Source: Natranaerofaba carboxydovora
Lineage (GTDB): Bacteria; Bacillota; Natranaerobiia; Natranaerobiales; Natranaerofabaceae
Direction: 5' to 3'
DNA length: 64,000 bases
NCBI RefSeq assembly: GCF_022539405.1
Contig: NZ_CP054394.1
Coordinates: forward strand, 1,806,501-1,870,500
A program made the position numbers and the translations under genes. The notes beneath the pieces were generated by a model. It worked only from the letters and a program-made list of their open reading frames with translations, did not search any database and was not told the origin of the DNA. Shown one piece after another: positions 25,361 through 58,086 of this stretch; the stretch's first letter is position 1; each line of letters starts with the position of its first letter.

Positions 25361-25411
25361 TTGATTCTAGTGTAAAAAGTCATATGAACAAAGTCTTGTT
25401 TTTTATTACAA
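25361..25411 (+). repeat. Palindromic repeat element, copy A (left half only)
   Basis: TTGATTCTAGTGTAAAAAGT begins the copy, followed by CATATGAACAAAG and TTTTTTATTACA, the same left arm seen in copies B to E. The right half is missing. It lies between the Sir2 gene start and the SpoIIE-type gene stop. Confidence 0.75.
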
Positions 25412-25418
25412 CCAACGC

Positions 25419-28136
25419 CTATTCTATTTTTATTAAAGCTATAACTTTATTTCCCTTGTGATTATAGTAAATTATATCACTAATCATTGCTGACATTAAG
25501 ACTCCTCTACCTCTTTCTTTTTCGCCACTTAACTCTATCTCTTTCCTTAATTTTTGCTGCCAGTCAAACCCTTCTCCTTCATCTTCTATTACTGCCATAA
25601 GATACTTCTGTTCAACATAAATAATATCTACTCTAACATTCTTTTCTTTATTTAACTGATTGCCATGTTCAATGGCATTAGCAGTAAGCTCATGAAGAGC
25701 CATTAAGAAGTATTGGCTTTCTTCAACAGGTGGAAGTTTAGATTGAACATCTTTGTCTAACCAGTTTAACTCTTCTAACTCACTACGCAGTTCGTATGAA
25801 AATGACATCTTATTTTGTCTGTATACCTGAAAAACCACCAAGGTTATATCATCATCTCCCTGAAGGATACCATTATTAAAATTGACATAATCATTTTTGA
25901 TTGCTTCTATGATTAATTCAGGAGGGCAATTGCTATACTTATAAAAAACATTTTTCAATCTATTCCCATAATATTTCCCATCTACAACCTGTTCGGAAAG
26001 CCCATCTGATGAAATTAATACCGTTGAGCCGGGAGCTAAATCCCTTCTCAAACTCTGAAAATTGAGCATATCCTTCGGGACAGCAGAAGAAATAGGAAGT
26101 CCCACATTATTGAGAAAATACTCTTTGCCATCACCAAAGTCAACAATAGGGGGTTCATGAAATCCAGCTCCTGTATACTTCAACTCATAATTTTTCTGAT
26201 CAAATACTACTATATATATACATATAAAAAAGTCATCGGGATAGCCCTCATTCAGGTATCTATCAGTCACAAACTCTAAAATCCTACCCGGACTAATTTC
26301 TCCTTCACACAAAGAAATATAGGTATCTATAGTATTTTTGATAAAAGAACTCATCATAGCACTATCTAATCCGTGCCCTGTAACATCAGATATGTATAGA
26401 ACAACCTGATTATCTTTTTTGACAACATTGTAAAAGTCTCCACCTATCATCTCAGCAGGCTGATAAAATGCCGAAACCGACAAATTATCCACTTCCGGGA
26501 AAATAACCGGCAGTGCTTTTTCATGCATTTCTTTAGCTTTATTGATCTCCTTATCTAATCTTTCATACAAAGTTTCAAGCTCAATATAATAGTTATCAAG
26601 CTCTTCTTCCATTACCCTTTGCTCTGTTACATCTCTTGCAATACCCATTAGCTCAAATTTCCCTTGTTTTTCTTCAAGTATAGAAGTTTTAACATCAACC
26701 CATCTCCATTCTCCGCTTTTATGTTTTAGCCTGTATTCTATACTTATATAACTAACATTTTGACCATCTTTTTCTCTGTACTCGTAAATCCTGCTGTCTA
26801 GGCTTTTCTTAATTTTTTCCCTATCGTCAGGATGAACAAAAGACATAAAGTCTCTATTTATAATCTCAGGCAATTTATAGCCAAGGTATTCATAACAGTT
26901 TGGAGATATATAAGTAAAATAACCTTTATGATCTATAGCAAATATAATATCATTTGCATTTTCAATAAAATTTCTAAATTTCTCTTCACTCTTTTCTAAC
27001 TCTTCTTGCACTCTTTTTTGTTCAGTTATATCCTGTACAGCACCATAAGCTTTTGTTGGCCTATTTTTGTAATCATATTCTATTTCTGCTAACTCCCTTA
27101 CCCATTTAATACCATTTTTAGTGTAGATTCGATGCTCAATATTATATTCCTTAAACCCTTTTGCTGCTTTTAACCACTCTTTACTTACATAATCTCTATC
27201 ATCCGGATGAACTAACGATAAAAAGTATTCATAAGTAATGGGAGTCTTATCATTTATTTCAAATATTTGATACGTTCTTTTACACCATCTTAATTTATTT
27301 GTCTTTATATCAAGTTCCCAACTGCCCAGCTTAGCCATCTTTTGTGCTCTAGCCATCTGGGCTTCTCTATCTTTTAGCGCTTCTCTTGATTTTTCCACCT
27401 CTGTTATATCTCTGGCTGTAGAAAGCACAGAACTCACTTCTACTTTTTCATCAAATTCGGGTATTAATCTCCAATCAAAAACTTTCTTATAACCATTAAT
27501 ACCCTCATATTCAAACCTGTCATACTTTGGCTCCCCGGTCTTAAAGACACTTTTGATTTTACTTTCCCAATATTCAGACATCTCCCTTGCAAATCCCAAT
27601 TCGTAATGCGTCTTACCTATAAATTCACTGCATGGGATACCAGTCAGCTCTTCTGTGGCTTTATTCACATAAATATGCCTAATCTCCCTATCAAACCTCA
27701 TGATAATATCAGGAGAGTTCTCAGCAAGGGCCTTATACATTTGCTCTTTTTCTATTAACTTCCTTTTCATCTCTACCTCATCTGATATGTCATAAAATAT
27801 ACAGGCAAAGTAGCCAGGTTTATCACCAAAAACAGTAACGTAGTACCATTTATCTAGGGGGGCAAAATAACTTTCAAAGTTCACATATCCTCCACTATCA
27901 GCTACTGCCGCAAACTGCTCGATCCATGAACCATCTATATCAGGGAAAATTTCTTTTGCTCTTTTATCAATAACTTCTTCACTTGACAGATCAGTCAGGA
28001 TTTCAAATGCATAATTTACTTTTAAGAAGATATAATCAATAGGTTTATTATCTTCATCATAAACCATCCTGCTGTAAAAAAAACCTTCAGGCAGTAATTC
28101 AAGCAGCCTGCGATATTGATCTTTAGAAAAAACCAT
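25419..28136 (-). CDS. Multi-PAS sensor with SpoIIE phosphatase and RsbW-like kinase domain
   Basis: A 905-residue cytosolic signalling protein with no membrane helix. Four PAS domains occupy about residues 1-520 (for example ENSPDIIMRFDREI, KTHYELGF, SLVHPDDR twice, YISPNCYEYLGY). A coiled coil leads to a PP2C/SpoIIE domain (MIGGDFYNVV, ISDVTGHGLDSAM, ISSDGLSEQ, GDDDITLVVF) at about 560-760, and the C terminus is an anti-sigma-type ATPase (HELTANAIEHGN, VEDEGEGFDW, GRGVLMSAM). This domain set controls anti-anti-sigma partner switching; no STAS protein or sigma factor is adjacent. Confidence 0.92.
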   Translation of the reverse strand: MVFSKDQYRRLLELLPEGFFYSRMVYDEDNKPIDYIFLKVNYAFEILTDLSSEEVIDKRAKEIFPDIDGSWIEQFAAVADSGGYVNFESYFAPLDKWYYVTVFGDKPGYFACIFYDISDEVEMKRKLIEKEQMYKALAENSPDIIMRFDREIRHIYVNKATEELTGIPCSEFIGKTHYELGFAREMSEYWESKIKSVFKTGEPKYDRFEYEGINGYKKVFDWRLIPEFDEKVEVSSVLSTARDITEVEKSREALKDREAQMARAQKMAKLGSWELDIKTNKLRWCKRTYQIFEINDKTPITYEYFLSLVHPDDRDYVSKEWLKAAKGFKEYNIEHRIYTKNGIKWVRELAEIEYDYKNRPTKAYGAVQDITEQKRVQEELEKSEEKFRNFIENANDIIFAIDHKGYFTYISPNCYEYLGYKLPEIINRDFMSFVHPDDREKIKKSLDSRIYEYREKDGQNVSYISIEYRLKHKSGEWRWVDVKTSILEEKQGKFELMGIARDVTEQRVMEEELDNYYIELETLYERLDKEINKAKEMHEKALPVIFPEVDNLSVSAFYQPAEMIGGDFYNVVKKDNQVVLYISDVTGHGLDSAMMSSFIKNTIDTYISLCEGEISPGRILEFVTDRYLNEGYPDDFFICIYIVVFDQKNYELKYTGAGFHEPPIVDFGDGKEYFLNNVGLPISSAVPKDMLNFQSLRRDLAPGSTVLISSDGLSEQVVDGKYYGNRLKNVFYKYSNCPPELIIEAIKNDYVNFNNGILQGDDDITLVVFQVYRQNKMSFSYELRSELEELNWLDKDVQSKLPPVEESQYFLMALHELTANAIEHGNQLNKEKNVRVDIIYVEQKYLMAVIEDEGEGFDWQQKLRKEIELSGEKERGRGVLMSAMISDIIYYNHKGNKVIALIKIE

Positions 28137-31305: not shown

Positions 31306-31528
31306 CTTGATTCGAGTGCAAAAAGTCATATGAACAAAGTTTTGTTTTTAATTGCAATATATCTTAATGAGAAAGCAGGAGAAATAAGGTCTAATGACGC
31401 CGACGTCATTAGCTAATTGAACTCAGGATGAGTTCTTGAATTAGGACACCTTATTTCAACTGCTGACGAATTTTAGATATATCAATAAAAAACACTATAT
31501 ATGAGTAGACTTTTGCAGTAGAATCAAG
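31306..31528 (+). repeat. Palindromic repeat element, copy B (full length, 223 bp)
   Basis: The ends CTTGATTC and GAATCAAG are complementary. Inside lie nested stems: GTTTTTAATTGCAATATATC with GATATATCAATAAAAAAC, GAAATAAGGT (31381-31390) with ACCTTATTTC (31448-31457), hairpin CTAATGACG-CCGA-CGTCATTAG (31391-31412) and hairpin GAACTCA-GGA-TGAGTTC (31419-31435). It sits between hyuA and hyuB and ends three bases before the hyuA stop codon. It accounts for most of the gene-free stretch 31129-31530. Confidence 0.88.
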
Positions 31529-31530
31529 CT

Positions 31531-33570
31531 TCAGAACTGTATGGTTATATTCCTATAAGCATCCACATAAGCCTTTTCTCCCGGCCAAACTAATGTAGTA
31601 GAATCAAGCTGTTCGATTACACAAGGACCAGCTAGACTTTGCCCTGGTTTTAGATCGTCTCTATCATAAATAGGTGTTTTCACAAATCCATCATCAAAAT
31701 AAACATCTCTTTCGCCTATCGGTTTCGCACTTTCTGCTGATACTTCTTCACTTACTAGATTTAGTCCGGGAAGTTTGCCAAAAGCAGTTAATCTGTAATT
31801 AACCATCTCAACCTCTTCTTCTCTTCTTTCATAGCCATACAAGCTTAGATGCCTCTTATGAAACTTTTCTTCCATTTTTTTGACTTCATTTTCATCTATT
31901 AAACCTTGAGAAGCCTCTATCCCTAGTTCAAAGGCCTGACCTTTGTATCTCATATCCACATATCTTAATAGCTCTATTTCTCCTTCGCCAAAACCTTCTG
32001 TATATAATTGTTCTTTTGCTTCTTTTTCCATCTCATCATATTTTTCCTCAATATCACCAGGCCTACTATTAATAGTTGATGTCACCTGGGTACGAACATA
32101 ATCATGTTTAACATCAGCAGTTAACATCCCCTCAGCAGAAGATATCCCAGGATTTTTGGGGATAATCACTTCTTTCATCCCTAGTTCTCTAGCTAGATAT
32201 GTTGCGTGCACAGGACCAGCCCCACCAAAAGCCACCAGGGAAAATTCTCTTGGATCGTATCCTTTTTCAACAGATACTACCCTTATCCCCCTAACCATAT
32301 TAGCCCCAACAACTCTCAAAATACCAGCAGCTGCTTCTTCAACCGAAAGTCCAAAAGTCCTTGCAATCTTCTCATCAATTACGCGCCTTGCACCTTCCAA
32401 ATCCATCTCCATATTTCCGCCCAAAATATAACCAGGGTTTATACGTCCTAAAACAACATTTGCGTCAGTTACTGTAGGTTCTGTCCCACCTTTTTGGTAA
32501 CACACAGGTCCCGGAACAGCACCTGCACTGTATGGTCCTACTCTTAGAGCTCCACCTGAATCAATCCAGGCAATACTGCCTCCACCAGAACCTATGGTAT
32601 TAATATCAATCATGGGCAGTTTGATGGGATAACCACCTATTTGGGCCTCGGTTGTATAGTGAGGTGTTTTGTTCTCCAAAAGGCATACATCCAAACTTGT
32701 ACCACCCATATCCGCAGTAATTATGTTGTCCCTACCAGTCTGCCAGCAGACAAACCTACCAGCCATAGCCCCACCCGCAGGCCCGGATAAGACAGTCCTA
32801 GCACTTGCATCCTGTGCTGTCTTAGAAGTTATTACACCACCATTAGACTGCATTATATAAAGGTCAGATTTTATATCCATCTCTTTTAGTTTCTCATCCA
32901 AATAAGATACATAATTGTTCACCTTTGGCATGACATAAGCATTAATTGCAACTGTACTTGTTCTTTCATACTCTCTAAATTCTGCCAAAACCTCAGATGA
33001 TATTGTCACAAATATTTCCGGGCACTTTTCTGCTAATATTTTTTTAATCTTTTTTTCGTGCTCAGGGTTTATATATGAATGCAAAAGACATACTGCAACA
33101 GAATCTACTTCTTCGGCTTTTAGCTTTTCCACTATCCTATCAACAGCTTCAATATCTAGATTTTTATAAATCTCACCGGTATGTAGTATCCTCTCAGGGA
33201 TTTCAAAACGAAGCCTCCTAGGTATTACAGGTTCTGGCTTTCTTGCCCAAAAGTCATACAGATGAGGCCTCGTTTGGCGTCCTATCTGTAAAACATCTTT
33301 AAATCCTTTTGTGGTAATTAAGGCAGTCTTAGCGCCCTTTAACTCCAAAAGGGTATTTGTAGCTACAGTTGTCCCATGAATAAGAAAGTTTATCTTGTTT
33401 CCTTTTATTCCCATGTTTTCGATAATCGAATTAATACCATTAATCACTGCCGAAGCAGGGTTATCCGGTGTAGATGGCACCTTTGTAACCAAAACCTGCC
33501 CTGTATCTTCATTAATTACACTTATGTCAGTAAAAGTTCCACCAGTATCTATTCCTACCTTATATCCCAT
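31531..33570 (-). CDS. hyuA: Hydantoinase A/oxoprolinase-type subunit (HyuA)
   Basis: A 679-residue ATP-binding subunit of the HyuA family with an actin-like fold. Motifs: GYKVGIDTGGTFTDISVI (phosphate 1), HGTTVATNTLLE, SGPAGGAMAGRF, TADMGGTSLDVCLL (phosphate 2), GSGGGSIAWID and AFGGAGPVHA. The C terminus has the beta-rich GPCVIEQLDSTTLVWPG. It would phosphorylate or activate a cyclic amide or carbonyl so that HyuB can hydrolyse or carboxylate it. Divergent from a BCCT transporter gene 95 bp away, suggesting joint uptake and use of a quaternary-amine-like or amide compound. Confidence 0.9.
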   Translation of the reverse strand: MGYKVGIDTGGTFTDISVINEDTGQVLVTKVPSTPDNPASAVINGINSIIENMGIKGNKINFLIHGTTVATNTLLELKGAKTALITTKGFKDVLQIGRQTRPHLYDFWARKPEPVIPRRLRFEIPERILHTGEIYKNLDIEAVDRIVEKLKAEEVDSVAVCLLHSYINPEHEKKIKKILAEKCPEIFVTISSEVLAEFREYERTSTVAINAYVMPKVNNYVSYLDEKLKEMDIKSDLYIMQSNGGVITSKTAQDASARTVLSGPAGGAMAGRFVCWQTGRDNIITADMGGTSLDVCLLENKTPHYTTEAQIGGYPIKLPMIDINTIGSGGGSIAWIDSGGALRVGPYSAGAVPGPVCYQKGGTEPTVTDANVVLGRINPGYILGGNMEMDLEGARRVIDEKIARTFGLSVEEAAAGILRVVGANMVRGIRVVSVEKGYDPREFSLVAFGGAGPVHATYLARELGMKEVIIPKNPGISSAEGMLTADVKHDYVRTQVTSTINSRPGDIEEKYDEMEKEAKEQLYTEGFGEGEIELLRYVDMRYKGQAFELGIEASQGLIDENEVKKMEEKFHKRHLSLYGYERREEEVEMVNYRLTAFGKLPGLNLVSEEVSAESAKPIGERDVYFDDGFVKTPIYDRDDLKPGQSLAGPCVIEQLDSTTLVWPGEKAYVDAYRNITIQF

Positions 33571-33665
33571 AGTTCCCCTCCATTTTTGTGATAATTAGCA
33601 GTCTTATTGACAAAGCTAAATTTAGTGAAATATCAAAATAATATCCGAAAGGTTTTGATTATATA

Positions 33666-35261
33666 GTGAAGCACAAAATAAGCCAGGAAAAGCTAAAAAA
33701 GCGCCTGTACAGTCGAAATATTAACAAGTTTGGCTTTGATTTAAACCCCTTTGTTTTTATTTTCAGCACTTCATTCATTATATTTTTCTCTTTATATGCT
33801 TTCCTAAACTTAGAACACGCTGGCATGGCTTTTAATATGATCAAGTCTTATGTTATCACAAATTTTGACTGGATCCTAATACTATCAAGTAACTTTTTTA
33901 TTGTTGTCTGCATCTTTCTTGCTATCTCTAAGCTTGGCAGTGTTAAGATAGGAGGACTAGATAGCGAACCTGAATTTAGTAATTTTTCCTGGTATTCTAT
34001 GCTGATTTCTGCTGGTATGGGGATAGGTTTGATGTTTTGGGCTGTTGGTGAACCTTTGTTTCATTTTACAAAAACACCACCCATCTTTGAAAGCCAGGAT
34101 GCTCCTATAACAGCTATGGCAACGACATTTTTACATTGGGGACTTCATCCATGGGGTGTCTATGCTCTTATAGCTTTATCACTTTCATTTTTCACATTTA
34201 ACAAAAACATGCCGTTATCCCTTCGATCTGCCTTCTATCATCTGCTTAAGGACAGAGTATATGGTATTCCTGGGGATTTGATAGATACCCTTGCAATTAT
34301 AGCGACATTATTTGGCCTTGCAACGTCTTTGGGGCTAGGGATATTACAAATAAATAGCGGCTTAAATTATTTAGTTGGCCTTAGCTTTAGTGTTGTTGTC
34401 CAGGTAATACTTATAATGGTGATAACTTTGTTTGCAATTATTTCTGTCGCTACAGGATTAAGTAAGGGTGTAAGAATCTTATCCGAGATAAATATCAAGC
34501 TTGCTGTCCTTTTTGTTTTAGCCATATTTATTCTAGGTCCTTCAAGTTATATAATCGAGTTATTATCTAATTCATTTGGACTATACTTTAACGATATCGT
34601 TAAAAATGCTTTCTTTATCTCATCAAGCGATAAGTCATGGCAGGCAGAGTGGACAGTTTTTTATCTTTCCTGGTGGATTTCCTGGTCTCCTTTTGTAGGA
34701 ATGTTTATTGCAAGGATTTCCAAAGGTAGAACAGTTAGAGAGTTAATACTGGGGGTGCTTATAGTTCCGTCTCTTTTATCATTTATCTGGCTTACCACCC
34801 TTGGAGGAACTTCGATATACCTAAACAAAGAAGTTGACGGTTCACTCTTTAACACTGTTCAGGATAGTTTCCCCCTGGCATTATTTGAAATGATCGATAT
34901 ATTAAATATGCCTTTTTTGGCAGAAATATTACGTACGATAATTTTTGTTTTGGTTATATCCCTTGTAGTCTCATACTTCATAACCTCTTCAGATTCTGGC
35001 TCTCTTGTAGCAAGCAAAATTAGCTCTGGAGGCAAAATCGATTCTCCACTGGTTCAGCGTATATTTTGGGCTGTTTTGGAAGGTCTTATCGCTGCTACAT
35101 TGTTAATAATCGGAGGAGAAAAAGCACTTTTTACCTTACAAACTGCTGTAATAAGTACAGGACTTCCTTTATCCATTATCTTTTTAATAATGACATACTC
35201 CTTAATAAAAGGCTTGACATATTCTTATGAAAAACAATTTAAAGCAGCAGGCAAGAAGTAA
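33666..35261 (+). CDS. BCCT-family transporter
   Basis: A 531-residue inner-membrane protein with twelve predicted helices of the betaine/carnitine/choline transporter family. Diagnostic segments are SAGMGIGLMFWAVGEPLFHF, TTFLHWGLHPWGVYALIALS, GLATSLGLG, WTVFYLSWWISWSPFVGMFIA and SYFITSSDSGSLV. The start is GTG, with AAAGG about 12 bases upstream. It could import glycine betaine as osmolyte or feed substrate to the divergent HyuA/HyuB genes. Copy C of the repeat element follows 17 bp after the stop. Confidence 0.92.
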   Translation: MKHKISQEKLKKRLYSRNINKFGFDLNPFVFIFSTSFIIFFSLYAFLNLEHAGMAFNMIKSYVITNFDWILILSSNFFIVVCIFLAISKLGSVKIGGLDSEPEFSNFSWYSMLISAGMGIGLMFWAVGEPLFHFTKTPPIFESQDAPITAMATTFLHWGLHPWGVYALIALSLSFFTFNKNMPLSLRSAFYHLLKDRVYGIPGDLIDTLAIIATLFGLATSLGLGILQINSGLNYLVGLSFSVVVQVILIMVITLFAIISVATGLSKGVRILSEINIKLAVLFVLAIFILGPSSYIIELLSNSFGLYFNDIVKNAFFISSSDKSWQAEWTVFYLSWWISWSPFVGMFIARISKGRTVRELILGVLIVPSLLSFIWLTTLGGTSIYLNKEVDGSLFNTVQDSFPLALFEMIDILNMPFLAEILRTIIFVLVISLVVSYFITSSDSGSLVASKISSGGKIDSPLVQRIFWAVLEGLIAATLLIIGGEKALFTLQTAVISTGLPLSIIFLIMTYSLIKGLTYSYEKQFKAAGKK

Positions 35262-35267
35262 CTAGAC

Positions 35268-35386
35268 ATTTACTTAAATTTGATTCTGGCACAAAAAGTC
35301 ATATGAACAATGTTTTGTTTTTAATTGCAAAAAACACTTTACTTATGTGAATAGACTTTTTGTGCCAGAATCAAAATTTACTTAAA
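35268..35386 (+). repeat. Palindromic repeat element, copy C, with flanking direct repeats
   Basis: The element (35279-35375, 97 bp) has perfect 22-bp ends, beginning TTTGATTCTGGCACAAAAAG. It is flanked by the exact 11-bp direct repeat ATTTACTTAAA at 35268-35278 and 35376-35386, a likely target-site duplication. The right copy contains the stop codon of the cbiO-like gene. It lacks the inner stems of copies B and E. Confidence 0.88.
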
Positions 35387-36214
35387 ATAAAAATTTTCAT
35401 TAATTATTTCTTCAGCTTCCTCCAAAGTCAAAGGTATCTTCCCTTGATAACCTTTGTCTTGAAGATTCTTAAATAACCTCACAAGCACTGGCGGCAACAA
35501 CCCTGCTTCAAGAAGGTTATCGCTGTTTACTAACACTTTCTGTGGTTTTCCATAGTCAATTACTTTTCCCTCGGCCAAAAGATATATAGTATCTGCCCAG
35601 CTTGACACCCAATTTACATCATGAGTTGTTAATACAACGGTGACTTCTTTTTCCTTATTATAATAATTTAAGAGTTCTTCAACTTCCTTTCTTGAATGTG
35701 CATCTAGACTATCTAGGGGCTCATCCAAAATAAGTATCTTAGGATCATGGATGAGCGCTCCCGCTAGAGCTACCTTTTGCTTCTCCCCACCGCTTAGATA
35801 ATGAGGTATCTTTTGCAGTTTGTCATCTATTCCAAGAATAGTAGCTATTTTGTGGACTTTTTTTTCTATTTCCCCCTGATCTACTCTTTCCTGTCGAAGG
35901 GTAAACGCTATATCATCATAAACCCTTGGACCTATTATCTGCTCTTCACAGTTTTGTAGTATTACACCAAGCTTTTTCCTTACTTTGTTAAAATCAGTTG
36001 TAGGTGAGAGCCCCGCTACTTTCACAGTACCATTTAGAGGTTTAATAAAGCCCATTATAGTTGACAACAAAGTAGTTTTGCCAGAGCCATTAGCTCCTAG
36101 TATAGCAACTTTTTCACCCCGTTCTATTTCAAGAGACTTGTCACTTTCAATGTTAACAACGGTACCATCGGGATAAACATGTCTAAAGTTTTCTACTCTA
36201 ATAATCCAATCCAT
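35378..36214 (-). CDS. cbiO: ECF transporter ATPase (CbiO/EcfA type)
   Basis: A 278-residue ABC ATPase that powers a group I ECF metal importer. Walker A LGANGSGKTTLLS, Q-loop VILQNCEEQ, signature LSGGEKQKVALAGAL, Walker B ILILDEPLDSLD and H-loop TTHD are all present. I start it at ATG 36214 with GGAG ten bases upstream; the gene then overlaps the end of cbiQ by 22 bp, which suggests coupling. The last bases of the gene coincide with the right flank of repeat copy C. Confidence 0.92.
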   Translation of the reverse strand: MDWIIRVENFRHVYPDGTVVNIESDKSLEIERGEKVAILGANGSGKTTLLSTIMGFIKPLNGTVKVAGLSPTTDFNKVRKKLGVILQNCEEQIIGPRVYDDIAFTLRQERVDQGEIEKKVHKIATILGIDDKLQKIPHYLSGGEKQKVALAGALIHDPKILILDEPLDSLDAHSRKEVEELLNYYNKEKEVTVVLTTHDVNWVSSWADTIYLLAEGKVIDYGKPQKVLVNSDNLLEAGLLPPVLVRLFKNLQDKGYQGKIPLTLEEAEEIINENFYFK

Positions 36215-36915
36215 TGAACCACCGCTCCCATAATTACTAGAACTCCTAAAGAAAGTACCAGGTAATCTTCCTTCTTCCATACCTCATTATAGTTAGATGT
36301 TGGTACAAAACCATCATAACCGCGAAGGGCAAAAACTTGATACATACGTTCACTGACATTAAAGGCTTGTATAAATAAAAGCCCTAACATTGAAGCTGTG
36401 TTTTTTAAATCATATAATAATTGTCCAGGCCTAAACCCACCTCTAATTTTAATAGTTCTTATTAGGTTTTGACTTTTATGTAACAATATAAAGACACCTC
36501 TATAGGTGAAGAAAAAAATATCACTTAACAGTGACGGCATTATTTTTGACAAAACTGAAAACAAATCAACATAAGGTGTGGTACAAAATAAAAATATCAA
36601 TATAAGAGCTGCTCCTAATGCCCTTAATATAATTATTAGTGAAACCATATAAGAACCCTGACCCAAAATTAGGGCAAAAATAATACTAAAAAATGCAGGA
36701 TATATTGCATAATGACCAATTTTAACTATACTAATCCCAGCTGCAAAATAAAGTAAAAATATAAAACTCAAAGTCAAAACAAGATAAAAGATATTAGTCC
36801 CGGTTATGATTGAAGCCAATATCCCTCCAGTAAGAAATATTTTTGCCGCAGGTCTTGCTCTATGAAAAAAGCTGTCCCCTTTATTAGCAATAAAATCTAT
36901 TCTCGCAAGGTGCAT
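36193..36915 (-). CDS. cbiQ: ECF transporter T component (CbiQ)
   Basis: A 240-residue membrane protein with about five helices, the coupling subunit between CbiO and CbiM. The C-terminal cytosolic coupling-helix region shows IRTIKIRGGFRPGQ and the second arginine motif YQVFALRGYDGF, the conserved AxR-type sites that contact the ATPase. The ATG overlaps the cbiM stop codon by one base (TAATG). It is slightly shorter than the typical 250-260 residues. Confidence 0.88.
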   Translation of the reverse strand: MHLARIDFIANKGDSFFHRARPAAKIFLTGGILASIITGTNIFYLVLTLSFIFLLYFAAGISIVKIGHYAIYPAFFSIIFALILGQGSYMVSLIIILRALGAALILIFLFCTTPYVDLFSVLSKIMPSLLSDIFFFTYRGVFILLHKSQNLIRTIKIRGGFRPGQLLYDLKNTASMLGLLFIQAFNVSERMYQVFALRGYDGFVPTSNYNEVWKKEDYLVLSLGVLVIMGAVVQWIGLLE

Positions 36916-37805
36916 TAGTCTTCAAACCTTTCGCTATTGTGGTCTTCAAAGTAGTTAATATCATTAACTCCTATAGCAGAAATCATATCCGGTCTAATGG
37001 AATTTACATACCTAACAATAAGCGAAGTAACCCCTGCTTCTAGTACTAATCCGGATAATAAAATTACCCCAAGGGCTCCCCATCCTGTTAAAGTAAAGAT
37101 ATGGACATCTTGAATAATTTCATTTAACTCCCCATCATTAGAACCATCTGAATTATTATAATCTTGATTATGGTCACTTATATGGTCATGAACATGATGC
37201 CTATCATCTTCTTTTCCATTCTGCTTCACATATTCATGTTCCTTTTCATATCTATGACTGTTATCATGCTCGTGATCATGTTCGTGGCTATGATCATGCT
37301 CACATACCGGCAAAGCCTCTCCATAGCCTGCAGTCGCACCCACTATACCTACCATCAATACCAAAGACAAAATCACAGCTGGTACCACAGAAAAAAAAGC
37401 AGCCCTAGCAGGCGAAAAATTCCTAACAAAACTTCTAAAAAGATAAGCCCCAACTAAAACCTCTGCACCAATAACAATGGTATTCAAGCCAACAATAGTT
37501 ATCCCACCATGACCTACCAAAGAAAGAATAAAGTTCACAATAAAAACTGCAACAAACCCAAGACCTGGCCCTACAATGATCCCTGTCAACACTGCCATGC
37601 TAAGGTGTATCGGTATAAATCCAAGAGGTACACTCATAGCAATAAGCATAAAAGCAGCAGCCATCGCTACTCTTGGTATTCTACTTGTAGCTTCGAACCT
37701 GTTCATCTTATGCAAGATCAAAAGCAAAATTATAAAGGTAGCAATATAGCCTCCGAGCCACCAGGCAATAGGCAAAATACCATCAGGAAGGTGAATATGG
37801 CTCAC
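36915..37805 (-). CDS. cbiM: ECF Ni/Co transporter S component (CbiM/NikM) with His-rich loop
   Basis: A 296-residue membrane protein starting at GTG 37805, seven bases after AGGAGGG. This gives the N terminus MSHIHLPDG, close to the MHIPDG that forms the metal site in CbiM/NikM. Following helices (VAMAAAFMLIAMSVPLG, GIIVGPGLGFVAVFIVNF, GHGGITIVGLNT) match the family. The periplasmic loop near 170-225 is very rich in His/Asp (HDHSHEHDHEHDNSH), longer than usual, and could pre-concentrate Ni or Co. The NikN/CbiN part appears fused at the C terminus (WGALGVILLSGLVLEAGVT). Confidence 0.88.
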   Translation of the reverse strand: MSHIHLPDGILPIAWWLGGYIATFIILLLILHKMNRFEATSRIPRVAMAAAFMLIAMSVPLGFIPIHLSMAVLTGIIVGPGLGFVAVFIVNFILSLVGHGGITIVGLNTIVIGAEVLVGAYLFRSFVRNFSPARAAFFSVVPAVILSLVLMVGIVGATAGYGEALPVCEHDHSHEHDHEHDNSHRYEKEHEYVKQNGKEDDRHHVHDHISDHNQDYNNSDGSNDGELNEIIQDVHIFTLTGWGALGVILLSGLVLEAGVTSLIVRYVNSIRPDMISAIGVNDINYFEDHNSERFED

Positions 37806-37828
37806 CCAAATCCCTCCTAACATAGAAG

Positions 37829-37887
37829 CAAAAACGCAAGTCACTTGCATTTTTGTTTATTTTAAGCTTTAACAAAAACCCTGTCAA
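37829..37887 (-). promoter_or_regulatory. cbiMQO promoter and leader hairpin
   Basis: Minus strand TTGACA (37882-37887), 17-base spacer, TAAAAT (37859-37864). The short leader then forms an 11-bp hairpin AAAAATGCAAG/CTTGCGTTTTT at about 37829-37853 ending in five T, just before the RBS, so it could attenuate the operon. I saw no obvious Fur or NikR palindrome in the rest of the 250-bp divergent region. Confidence 0.6.
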
Positions 37888-38057
37888 TATTTTATATTTT
37901 TTTCATGTTTATCGTATTCATTATTTCAGGAATTTTTTCTATTCTATCGGGGAACTTTACACAGGCGAACAGGTAATTGCAGGTACATTTCTGTTATGAT
38001 AAAATTTTTTTAACTAAATAACTCAAATTACTTTAAAACTATTAGGAGAGTTTTACT

Positions 38058-38471
38058 ATGGACAAAGAAAGTGCTTACACTTTATTAAATAAATCTGGTT
38101 TAAGAAAAACTTCTGGCAGGGTTGCTATTCTAAATTGTTTGATTAAAGAACAAAAACCCCTTACTCAGCAGGAAATTGCGGAAAAACTAACTGATGTAAA
38201 TTTGAATGAAGTTAGTATTTATAGAGCCCTTGAAGCATTTGATAAGGCAGGAATCATCCACCGCGTAGAAGGTTTGGACAAAGTATGGCGATTTGCAGTT
38301 TCTTACCACCCGCTATCGGGGAACTGTCATCCACATTTTATCTGTACAGAGTGCGGGAGGGTAGAGTGTTTAACCGATTTAGAAGTTCCCAAACTCACCC
38401 CAAAGAATTACACTCATAAGATAAAAAGCAGGGAGATGATATTAAAAGGATATTGTGAGGAGTGTACTTAG
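38058..38471 (+). CDS. Fur-family metal-responsive repressor
   Basis: A 137-residue winged-helix regulator of the Fur family. The DNA-binding half shows KTSGRVAILNCLIKEQKPLT and SIYRALEAFDKAGIIHRV; the dimer half has HPHFICTECGRVECL and a C-terminal GYCEECT, two CxxC sites for structural zinc. It is divergent from cbiMQO, 250 bp apart, so I infer it may control nickel/cobalt uptake (Nur-like) and not iron or zinc. The usual HHxH metal motif is represented by CHPHF. GGAGAG precedes the ATG. Confidence 0.88.
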   Translation: MDKESAYTLLNKSGLRKTSGRVAILNCLIKEQKPLTQQEIAEKLTDVNLNEVSIYRALEAFDKAGIIHRVEGLDKVWRFAVSYHPLSGNCHPHFICTECGRVECLTDLEVPKLTPKNYTHKIKSREMILKGYCEECT

Positions 38472-38498
38472 TTTTCAGATATGTCTTTTCTTAAAGTT

Positions 38499-38655
38499 TT
38501 GATTTAACTGCAAAAAGTCATATGAACAAAGTTTTGTTTTTAATTACAATACATCTTGATGAGAAGGCAGCCTTATTTCGACCGCTGACGAGTTTTAGAT
38601 GTATCAATTAAAAACAATATAACTTTTGTGAATAGACTTTTTGCAGTTAAGTCAG
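38499..38655 (+). repeat. Palindromic repeat element, copy D (about 156 bp)
   Basis: Ends TTGATTTAACTGCAAAAAGT and GACTTTTTGCAGTTAAGTCA are complementary. The arm AATACATCT pairs with AGATGTATC as in copy E. The GAAATAAGGT strand and both inner hairpins are deleted. It lies between the Fur-family gene and the MmgE/PrpD stop. Confidence 0.85.
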
Positions 38656-38674
38656 CTTTGTTATAGAAGGTCAC

Positions 38675-40087
38675 TTATGAAGACAAACTCAAGTAAGCCG
38701 ACAGCTCATTTATATCCTGGATATTTTCAAGGGAGTAAACTTCTTCGATAAACTTTTCTTGTTGATCCTGGGTCATTTTATCCGCAAGAGACTTGAATTT
38801 TAAGATCAGTTCATCATCACAAAGTGGGTTTTCAGGATCTCCTTTTGGATGCTCTATTTTACTGTTAAAGACCCTGCCATCCACAGTTTTAATTTCTACC
38901 TCACACGGCCATTTTTTGGGGAATTCAGTTTCTAAGTTAGAGTCTCTACTACAGCTCACCTTTTTCATCAAATCTTTTACCTCTATAGAATTTATAACCT
39001 CTTCATTATACTCATCTAAGAAAGCACGTTTTTTTAGGATAGCAATTGAGACAGCGTAGGGTAAGCTAAACTGCGCATCTACTACATTCTCAGGATTTTG
39101 TTTTTTCTCCCAAGGTTCACCTACAAGCTGCATGCCCGGACCAACCAACTTTACGTTAACCTCTTCAACCTGATCAGCAGTAATATCGTTATTTTTTACT
39201 AGATCTAATGTAGCATCAATAGGAGACTGGTTGTACCTGCAGCAGGCATGAGGCTTGATACTGGTATTTAGGGTCAAAAATTCACTTCCTAGGTTTTCAA
39301 CTGACAACTCTGGCTTTGAATCATCTGAATAAGAATTTAAAAATCCATATTTACCTTCAATCCCTCTCATAGGACCTTTGAATCCACAGGAAGCAAGCTT
39401 TGCTCCAATATAACCGCTGTGCGCTGACCAACCAGGATGAAAGCGCTTAGTCCATGTCCCATCATTCAAAAACTCTAAGGAAGAAGCAGCTTGGCTAGTA
39501 GAAATACCAAAGGCACTAATAAGCTCATCTGAGCTAAGGCCCATAAGTTTGCCTACAGTCACAGCAGCAGCGAACGTTCCGGTGGTACCAGTAGGATGAA
39601 ATCCACATTTATAATGTGCTGTAGGGTTAACTGCCCTTCCTAGTCGAATCATCACTTCATAGCCGGCTACTACTGCTGTAATAAAATCTTTCCCATTAGC
39701 TCCTGTCTCTTCAGCTGCTGAGATAGCAGCAGGGAACACTACTACCCCCGGATGTATAGAAGCTTCATTAACTACATCATCAAGCTCAAGGCTGTGAGAA
39801 AAGATGCCATTTGCCAGGCATGAATATTCATACCTGGCCTTAAATTCTGTACCCGCTACCACGCTACCATTTTCTTCATCAATTTCTTTAAACCCATCTA
39901 ACTTAGCTAACATTTGAAGTACAGGTTTACTAGACTCCATCTCTGCGCCTTTATAGCTAAGCCCTGCATAGTCAATCAAGAGACGCTTTATCGAATCATT
40001 TACTTCCACTGGTATATCTTCATAGTTAAGTGATACTACAAAATCGGCCAACTTCTTTTCTATGTCATTGTACTCACTGTATTCCAT
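38675..40087 (-). CDS. MmgE/PrpD-family protein
   Basis: A 470-residue protein of the 2-methylcitrate dehydratase fold, whose members act on tricarboxylates or related acids (dehydratases, cis-aconitate decarboxylase, epimerases). Characteristic segments are SHSLELDDVV near 80, HPGVVVFPAAISAAEE, GFHPTGTTGTFAAA, FHPGWSAHSGYI and IKPHACCRYNQSPIDA. The order and length are typical. It is flanked on both sides by palindromic repeats D and E and lies downstream of the flavoprotein/DUF4387/AtuA genes on the same strand. The substrate cannot be read from sequence. Confidence 0.9.
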   Translation of the reverse strand: MEYSEYNDIEKKLADFVVSLNYEDIPVEVNDSIKRLLIDYAGLSYKGAEMESSKPVLQMLAKLDGFKEIDEENGSVVAGTEFKARYEYSCLANGIFSHSLELDDVVNEASIHPGVVVFPAAISAAEETGANGKDFITAVVAGYEVMIRLGRAVNPTAHYKCGFHPTGTTGTFAAAVTVGKLMGLSSDELISAFGISTSQAASSLEFLNDGTWTKRFHPGWSAHSGYIGAKLASCGFKGPMRGIEGKYGFLNSYSDDSKPELSVENLGSEFLTLNTSIKPHACCRYNQSPIDATLDLVKNNDITADQVEEVNVKLVGPGMQLVGEPWEKKQNPENVVDAQFSLPYAVSIAILKKRAFLDEYNEEVINSIEVKDLMKKVSCSRDSNLETEFPKKWPCEVEIKTVDGRVFNSKIEHPKGDPENPLCDDELILKFKSLADKMTQDQQEKFIEEVYSLENIQDINELSAYLSLSS

Positions 40088-40122
40088 TTAATTACCTCCC
40101 TTAAAACGAAATAAATTCCCCT

Positions 40123-40346
40123 GGATGTATCAATTAAAAATTGATTATGGTGCAAAAAGTCATATGAACAAAGTTTTGTTTTTAATTGCAATACATCTTG
40201 GTGAGGAAGCAGGAGAAATAAGGTCTAATGACAGGAAGTCATTAGCTAATCGAACTCAGGATGAGTTCATTGATTTGGAAACCTTATTTCGACTGCTGAC
40301 GAATCTTAGATGTATCAATTAAAAACACTTTAGTTGTGTGAATCTA
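40123..40346 (+). repeat. Palindromic repeat element, copy E (long form, right end lost)
   Basis: The left end TTGATTATGGTGCAAAAAGT starts at 40141. It contains the same stems as copy B: GAAATAAGGT (40215-40224) with ACCTTATTTC (40281-40290), hairpin CTAATGAC..GTCATTAG (40225-40245) and hairpin GAACTCAGGATGAGTTC (40252-40268). The outer right terminal repeat is missing and the element runs into the TAG stop of the flavoprotein gene. Bases 40123-40140 repeat part of the right arm (GGATGTATCAATTAAAAA), suggesting a nested or adjacent older copy. Confidence 0.85.
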
Positions 40347-55344: not shown

Positions 55345-55394
55345 AATTTTTAATACACTTTACTTTTGTGAATAGACTTTTTGCACCAAAATCA
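55345..55394 (+). repeat. Palindromic repeat element, copy F (right half only)
   Basis: AATTTTTAATACACTTTACT, TTTGTGAATAGACTTTTTGC and ACCAAAATCA reproduce the right arm of copies C and D. The left half is absent. It lies between the kinase start and the alcohol dehydrogenase stop. Confidence 0.75.
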
Positions 55395-58038: not shown

Positions 58039-58086
58039 TGATTCTGGTGCAAACAATCTATTCTATGACTTTTCGCACCAGAATCA
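58039..58086 (+). repeat. Palindromic repeat element, copy G (minimal, 48 bp)
   Basis: TGATTCTGGTGC and GCACCAGAATCA form perfect 12-bp ends around 24 bases that keep parts of CTATTCTATGACTTTT. It has the same end sequence as copies C and E but no interior. It lies between the alcohol dehydrogenase and aldehyde oxidoreductase genes. Confidence 0.75.

Follow-up and report, generated by a model that had tools for sequence, protein, structure and literature searches.

Inverted-repeat elements in the window

The window, 64,000 nucleotides of the single-contig genome (3.26 Mb) of Natranaerofaba carboxydovora, harbors seven pieces of one repeat, termed copies A to G, whose arms fold into one branched hairpin. 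The pieces extend beyond the interval 31306-40346, for which an initial annotation had described a repeat family with paired arms that change together. They are listed with their parts in Table 1. Full-length copy B was flanked by a 6-bp duplication matching at five of six positions (AAACTT/AAGCTT), and the same degree of matching was seen around copy D (AGTTTT/AGCTTT). Copy E, which served as the reference for genome-wide identity comparison, carried GTGTGAATCTATGAA on its right side in place of GTGAATAGACTTTTTGC. The right-arm remnant GATGTATCAATTAAAAA directly adjoined copy E, and at another locus (L021) two left ends were located 36 nt apart. Copies insert beside or into one another.

Table 1. 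Copies of the repeat in the window and their structural parts (TIR, terminal inverted repeat; MITE, miniature inverted-repeat transposable element)
Feature	Position	Strand	Description	Sequence
Copy A	25363..25410	+	Left end only, truncated	GATTCTAGTGTAAAAAGTCATATGAACAAAG; 17-mer AAAAAGTCATATGAACA matched exactly
Copy B	31309..31525	+	Full-length MITE, 217 nt, GATTC...GAATC	TIRs GATTCGAGTGCAAAAAGTC / GATTCTACTGCAAAAGTC
Copy B, stem	31381..31457	+	Closes both apical hairpins	GAAATAAGGT/ACCTTATTTC
Copy B, apical hairpin 1	31391..31412	+		CTAATGACG-CCGA-CGTCATTAG
Copy B, apical hairpin 2	31413..31444	+		CTAATT..GAACTCA-GGA-TGAGTTC..AATTAG
Copy C	35282..35372	+	91 nt, internal deletion, ends pair perfectly	GATTCTGGCACAAAAAGTC / GACTTTTTGTGCCAGAATC
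Copy D	38501..38653	+	153 nt, internal deletion, without apical hairpins; alignment A2	GATTTAACTGC...GCAGTTAAGTC
Remnant	40124..40140	+	Right arm of another copy, same sequence as the inner right arm in full copies	GATGTATCAATTAAAAA
Copy E	40143..40340	+	Near full length, right terminal repeat lost	
Copy F	55345..55393	+	Right end only	GTGAATAGACTTTTTGCACCAAAATC
Copy G	58040..58085	+	Minimal palindromic copy, 46 nt	GATTCTGGTGCAAACAATC...GACTTTTCGCACCAGAATC

The strings quoted in the initial annotation as examples of matched arms were all found. These were AATATATCT/AGATATATC in copy B and AATACATCT/AGATGTATC in copies D and E, the outer-end pairs CTGGCACA/TGTGCCAG in copy C and TTAACTGCA/TGCAGTTAA in copy D, and the stem GAAATAAGGT/ACCTTATTTC and the hairpin GAACTCA-GGA-TGAGTTC, both common to copies B and E. 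The pair CTGGTGC/GCACCAG of copy G was also real and lies outside the interval under which it had been reported. The choice of examples was selective: the outer ends of copy B do not pair (GATTCGAGTGC versus GATTCTACTGC), and copy E has no right end. In the genome as a whole, the same variable block was present at both ends of 40 of the 66 two-ended copies (25.4 expected from shuffling, maximum 34).

Between window positions 25419 and 41981, Pfam matches among the neighboring genes indicated a PAS/SpoIIE phosphatase, hydantoinases A and B, a BCCT transporter, CbiM/CbiQ/ABC cobalt uptake, a Fur-family regulator, MmgE/PrpD, and an FAD-binding protein.

Copy number, target duplication, and element type

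When the genome was searched with the left-end 17-mer, allowing two mismatches or fewer, 109 matches were obtained, compared with 6 for the reversed control. The right end gave 121 matches (control, 4), so both counts lie far beyond chance, and the terminal repeat gave at least 145 (control, 0). Copies were read from the stretches around these pattern matches, among the matches listed. The genome contains about a hundred copies or more. Some 40 of them were full length and 85-95% identical to copy E. The remaining copies were single ends or internal deletions with many different junctions, the smallest being bare hairpins of 37-60 nt.

The TIR GATTCtggtGCAAAAAGTC was present at both ends of 67 copies. 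With element boundaries set at GATTC...GAATC, the left and right 6-base flanks of these two-ended copies had an identity of 0.667 as opposed to 0.517 for shuffled flanks (z = 8.9). The signal was clear only at a shift of 6, and the z values at other shifts were at most about 2. Exact duplications were found for 10 copies at 6 bp and for 5 more at a 7-bp shift, and the target duplication followed the consensus AANNTT. The elements are about 220 nt long or shorter, their interior is coding-free, and they are without a transposase. Judged against simple calls of open reading frames (ORFs), they were intergenic with a median distance of 11 bp from stop codons versus 64 bp from starts (p = 6e-8), which fits insertions tolerated in 3' spacers. 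Given the TIRs, the fixed duplication, the high copy number, and the lack of coding capacity, the elements were classified as MITEs, and a transposon origin of the family is almost certain.

They constitute a new, apparently orphan family of MITEs whose interior forms a hairpin. Like other bacterial MITEs derived from insertion sequences, they are short, non-coding, intergenic, and high-copy, with TIRs and a duplication of fixed length. In contrast to these, the host family has no detectable partner insertion sequence in the same genome, and its interior is a conserved multi-branched hairpin. REP and REPIN elements are likewise dispersed intergenic palindromes, but the host elements possess true TIRs and a 6-bp duplication, and a GTAG/CGTC tag was not noticed in them. 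The bcr1 repeat has been described as mobile, and by this description its ends and duplication differ from those of the host family. Bcr1-type and other bacterial stem-loop repeats resemble the host elements in being high-copy and intergenic and in having a common predicted secondary structure (PMC2267715).

The branched hairpin and its covariation

An alignment of 30 copies with 88 pairs (A1) was compared with 500 shuffles. Pairing was observed in 94.2% of the cells, compared with 34-40% when the structure was slid. Both-sided changes affected 24 pairs (10.4 on average after shuffling) and 60 cells (shuffled, 15.2); neither value was reached in any of the 500 shuffles. All five pairing measures lay above 500 of 500 shuffles and above every slid structure. 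In the same 30 copies, 98.1% of the cells were paired in helix 5 (the stem GAAATAAGGT/ACCTTATTTC), 94.8% in helix 6 (apical hairpin 1), and about 92% in helices 7-8 (apical hairpin 2). The loop of the second apical hairpin contains GGA (e.g. window positions 31419-31435), as do most first apical hairpins. GGA apical loops recall CsrA-binding hairpins.

The initial annotation had called for a check with R-scape. A tree-based null was written in the manner of that program and run with 60 replicates for the host family. Among 38 copies, 22 both-sided Watson-Crick changes were assigned to branches, versus 2.3 under the null (at most 5 in any of the 60 replicates), but significance for single pairs was reached by only 2 of 89. 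A cluster of four changes in L019 is probably an artifact of an indel that shifted the alignment. One-sided changes numbered 252 and were thus about ten times commoner than both-sided ones, indicating that the pairing in old copies is mostly inherited. The covariation is real, and the claim that the arms change together held over the full copy set against both shuffles and the tree-based null.

The host also has a second subfamily, represented by L138/L253 and L254, which is about 70-74% identical to the main family and has the same architecture. In it, 10-11 pairs were changed on both sides and still formed Watson-Crick pairs, and about two dozen others were altered on one side or unpaired.

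The matched arms could result from inheritance only, copies having descended from a few masters with arms already matched. Variable-block classes (TGG, AAC, TAC, and AGGC) that are common to multiple copies, and the existence of mixed copies, are in line with this. The both-sided changes, however, occurred on many separate branches of the tree and in far greater number than expected, several independent matched changes were found in single young copies, among them the singleton TA>AT of L010, which was matched in both arms, and the origin of the masters' matched arms would be left unexplained. We regard inheritance as a quite improbable sole cause.

Rosettes and same-ended insertion sequences

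The exact left-end pattern had no match outside the host among GTDB genomes, and an order-level scan of the other two genomes, out of three that represent the order in the set, was likewise negative. A scan of GTDB genomes with a 17-base end identified two metagenome-assembled genomes (MAGs) of Clostridia with 150 and 49 end matches. The elements found there (e.g. L245, L246, and L250) are 201 nt long and consist of seven adjacent near-perfect hairpins with short loops, closed by a terminal stem. These rosettes share with the host family only the ends and the 6-bp duplication; the interior differs. Of 28 rosettes, 13 had a complete duplication (6/6) and another 10 had one matching at 5/6. For 21 rosettes, 29 both-sided changes were counted versus 1.2 under the null (maximum 4), and 5 of 86 pairs were individually significant. 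A branched, covarying fold is conserved in some 40 host copies and in the second host subfamily, and it recurs in two other genomes whose elements have a different interior. About 150 end matches fell within one assembly of 2.6 Mb. Rosettes often break contigs, and most further rosettes of the MAGs were located at contig ends.

Any match to the ends was found in 22 of 398 genomes scanned across the phylum. In other Bacillota genomes, insertion sequences of 1.9-2.0 kb carried the same ends (L316, L322, L311, and L312). The element at positions 2430-4426 of L316 has an exact duplication, ATTCTT, and encodes a transposase of 542 aa, and that at positions 944-2879 of L322 has a 5/6 duplication (ATACAG/ATATAG). 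Intact transposases of the same-ended insertion sequences have lengths of 542-558 aa, and another, of 554 aa, lies beside a matching right end in L321. PF13751 matched with 59-68 bits (cut-off 25.1), and DUF772 was present in two of three transposases scanned. The best NCBIfam match was IS1182 (E values of 5e-47 to 5e-43), with 148-161 bits and thus below the equivalog cut-off of 270. As in the IS1182 family (NF033551; PF13751, PF05598), PF13751 transposases are encoded, some with DUF772; unlike in that family, the partner transposases fall below the cut-off, and the host MITEs encode nothing. The same-ended insertion sequences form a divergent branch near IS1182, and as the host lacks a PF13751 transposase, its MITE family looks orphaned. 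Judged by ends and duplication length, the host family appears tied to the rosette-like MITEs of other Clostridia.

In one Bacillota genome, the ends GATTCTGGTGCAAAAACCC were seen at contig ends in five places (L303, L313, L314, and L315), which points to an insertion sequence present in multiple copies and interrupting the assembly.

Several candidates for a mobilizing element were rejected. The host has two copies of an IS1182/IS5-like element, at genome positions 1969942 and 1974565 (L149-L152), which encode a DUF772 transposase and are 98.8% identical over 1290 bp; their ends, TTGCAAAAC (L149/L150), are unrelated to the repeats. Pairs of inverted ends 1-3.5 kb apart in the host and in L157, L233, and L052 had no matching duplication, and the intervals between them contained ordinary genes and no transposase where ORFs were read. 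In the literature on the end sequence, the only relevant match among the matches listed was ISces of the IS6 family, with an end, GGTTCTGGTGCAAAAAG, identical to GATTCTGGTGCAAAAAG at 16 of 17 positions (PMC4057527). IS6 as mobilizer was dismissed because its duplication is 8 bp as compared with 6 here, with no signal at shift 8, and because the PF13610 transposase was absent from the host and the three MAGs tested.

Origin of the matched changes

In the host family, both-sided changes comprised 12.6 transitions and 9.5 transversions, i.e. about 43% were of the transversion type, and one-sided changes comprised 134 transitions and 118 transversions (47% transversions). Changes of the transversion type cannot pass via G-U, and stepwise compensation through G-U would favor transitions. 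In the rosettes, loops occurred as exact reverse complements of each other, in four types: ATTTT/AAAAT, CATTTTG/CAAAATG, CGATTCG/CGAATCG, and CAAAG/CTTTG. Homogenized arms and inverted spacers are marks of template switching at inverted repeats (PMC8604942, PMC8794818). There is about an even chance that template switching was the main source of the compensated changes. Conversion between arms, one of the outcomes that the initial annotation had named as speaking against its reading, is thus a live explanation. Arm-to-arm copying of DNA accounts for the matched changes at least as well as a working RNA, and slightly better.

Taken together, the results suggest an old MITE family that was mobilized by an IS1182-related element and whose arms were partly homogenized by template switching during replication; we assign this account a probability of about 0.6. 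Copies would have been spread by an IS1182-related DDE transposase that recognizes ends of the form GATTCtggtG(C/T)AAAAA and generates 6-bp duplications of an AANNTT-like target. An IS1182-like mobilizer is probable, mobilization of the host family being deduced from the same-ended insertion sequences elsewhere. The master element would have been almost completely self-complementary, its hairpin would have been inherited by the copies, and the interior would later have been deleted in many of them. Template switching may then have transferred changes from arm to arm and may also have flipped loops, as suggested by strand symmetry, the share of transversions, and the inverted rosette loops. Selection on the fold, if any, would more likely act at the DNA level or on the tolerability of insertions than on a specific RNA.

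A number of observations speak against this account. Inspection by eye revealed no inverted loops in the host's own family; with such loops known from the relatives only, template switching is favored but not decisively. The host genome contains no match to PF13751 or PF13610 and no transposase with these ends; a partner in the same genome is common for MITEs, though not required. Two of the four same-ended insertion sequences (L311 and L312) showed no clear duplication. Divergence in the host family was 0.063 in stems versus 0.123 at unpaired sites, and the two GGA apical loops showed a conservation (0.04) that extended to the second subfamily, which together hint at selection. RNAalifold gave -55.8 for the + orientation of the host family and -41.5 for the reverse. 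In counts of cells, G-T exceeded A-C in the host family (85 versus 56, p = 0.018).

The conserved GGA loops and the lean toward the + strand would be expected if the element were transcribed, acted as an RNA with a defined structure (a small RNA, a stabilizer or terminator in 3'-UTRs, or a sponge for a protein that binds GGA loops), and had its pairing kept by selection. Both-sided changes above the tree and shuffle nulls, the twofold variability of unpaired sites relative to stems, and the position of copies directly downstream of stop codons agree with this as well. A functional RNA strand would tolerate G-U but not A-C, and the two were therefore counted. As events, G-T and A-C stood at 68:50 in the host family (p = 0.12) and at 16:26 in the rosettes (p = 0.16); counting events instead of cells thus removed the significance of the G-T excess. 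For copy B, the folding z was -11.7 as DNA and -8.6 and -9.1 for the two strands as RNA, so the RNA strands fold about equally well and the best value relative to shuffles was that of DNA. Orientation relative to the transcription of genes showed no significant bias (20 same, 32 opposite, p = 0.13), the interior is lost in many copies, and no known Rfam family was matched by the element. No test clearly favored an RNA, and we consider an RNA function improbable.

At the DNA level, an extruded or single-stranded hairpin might be selected because it brings the ends into proximity or protects the element in replication-coupled transposition. The strand-symmetric pairing and the strong fold of copy B as DNA would agree with this, as would the rosettes, which are almost wholly paired and have nothing but ends and duplication length in common with the host family, so that pairing recurs and not sequence. 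The same-ended insertion sequences, however, have ordinary coding interiors, and an element can persist without its interior, as the deleted copies demonstrate, although movement may still require it. DDE elements with a fixed duplication move by double-stranded cut and paste, which the duplication and the DDE transposase imply here also. Selection of this kind is possible but unlikely. Somewhat more doubtful still is a broader proposal, in which hairpin rosettes would be a widespread, unrecognized class of mobile elements in Bacillota that combine unrelated interiors and nearly complete base pairing with common transposase ends and a 6-bp target, the rosette acting as DNA or RNA in transposition or in the host.

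Overall, the evidence did not establish that a folded nucleic acid is under selection. The initial annotation had deduced from the covariation that a hairpin in single-stranded DNA or in RNA is under selection; this step was not supported, because the elements are MITEs with TIRs and a 6-bp duplication, neither strand is clearly favored, a large share of the compensated changes is of the transversion type, and the inverted rosette loops point to template switching.

Implications

Covariation is widely read as evidence for a functional RNA. Here it occurs in a transposon family in which template switching can produce it. The family is useful in this respect since it combines many copies per genome and a clear transposon origin with no clear strand preference, and a comparison of many young copies within a single genome would allow the frequency of template switching to be measured. 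The ends and the duplication length link these MITEs to an IS1182-like transposase from a divergent branch, which provides a concrete candidate for their partner.

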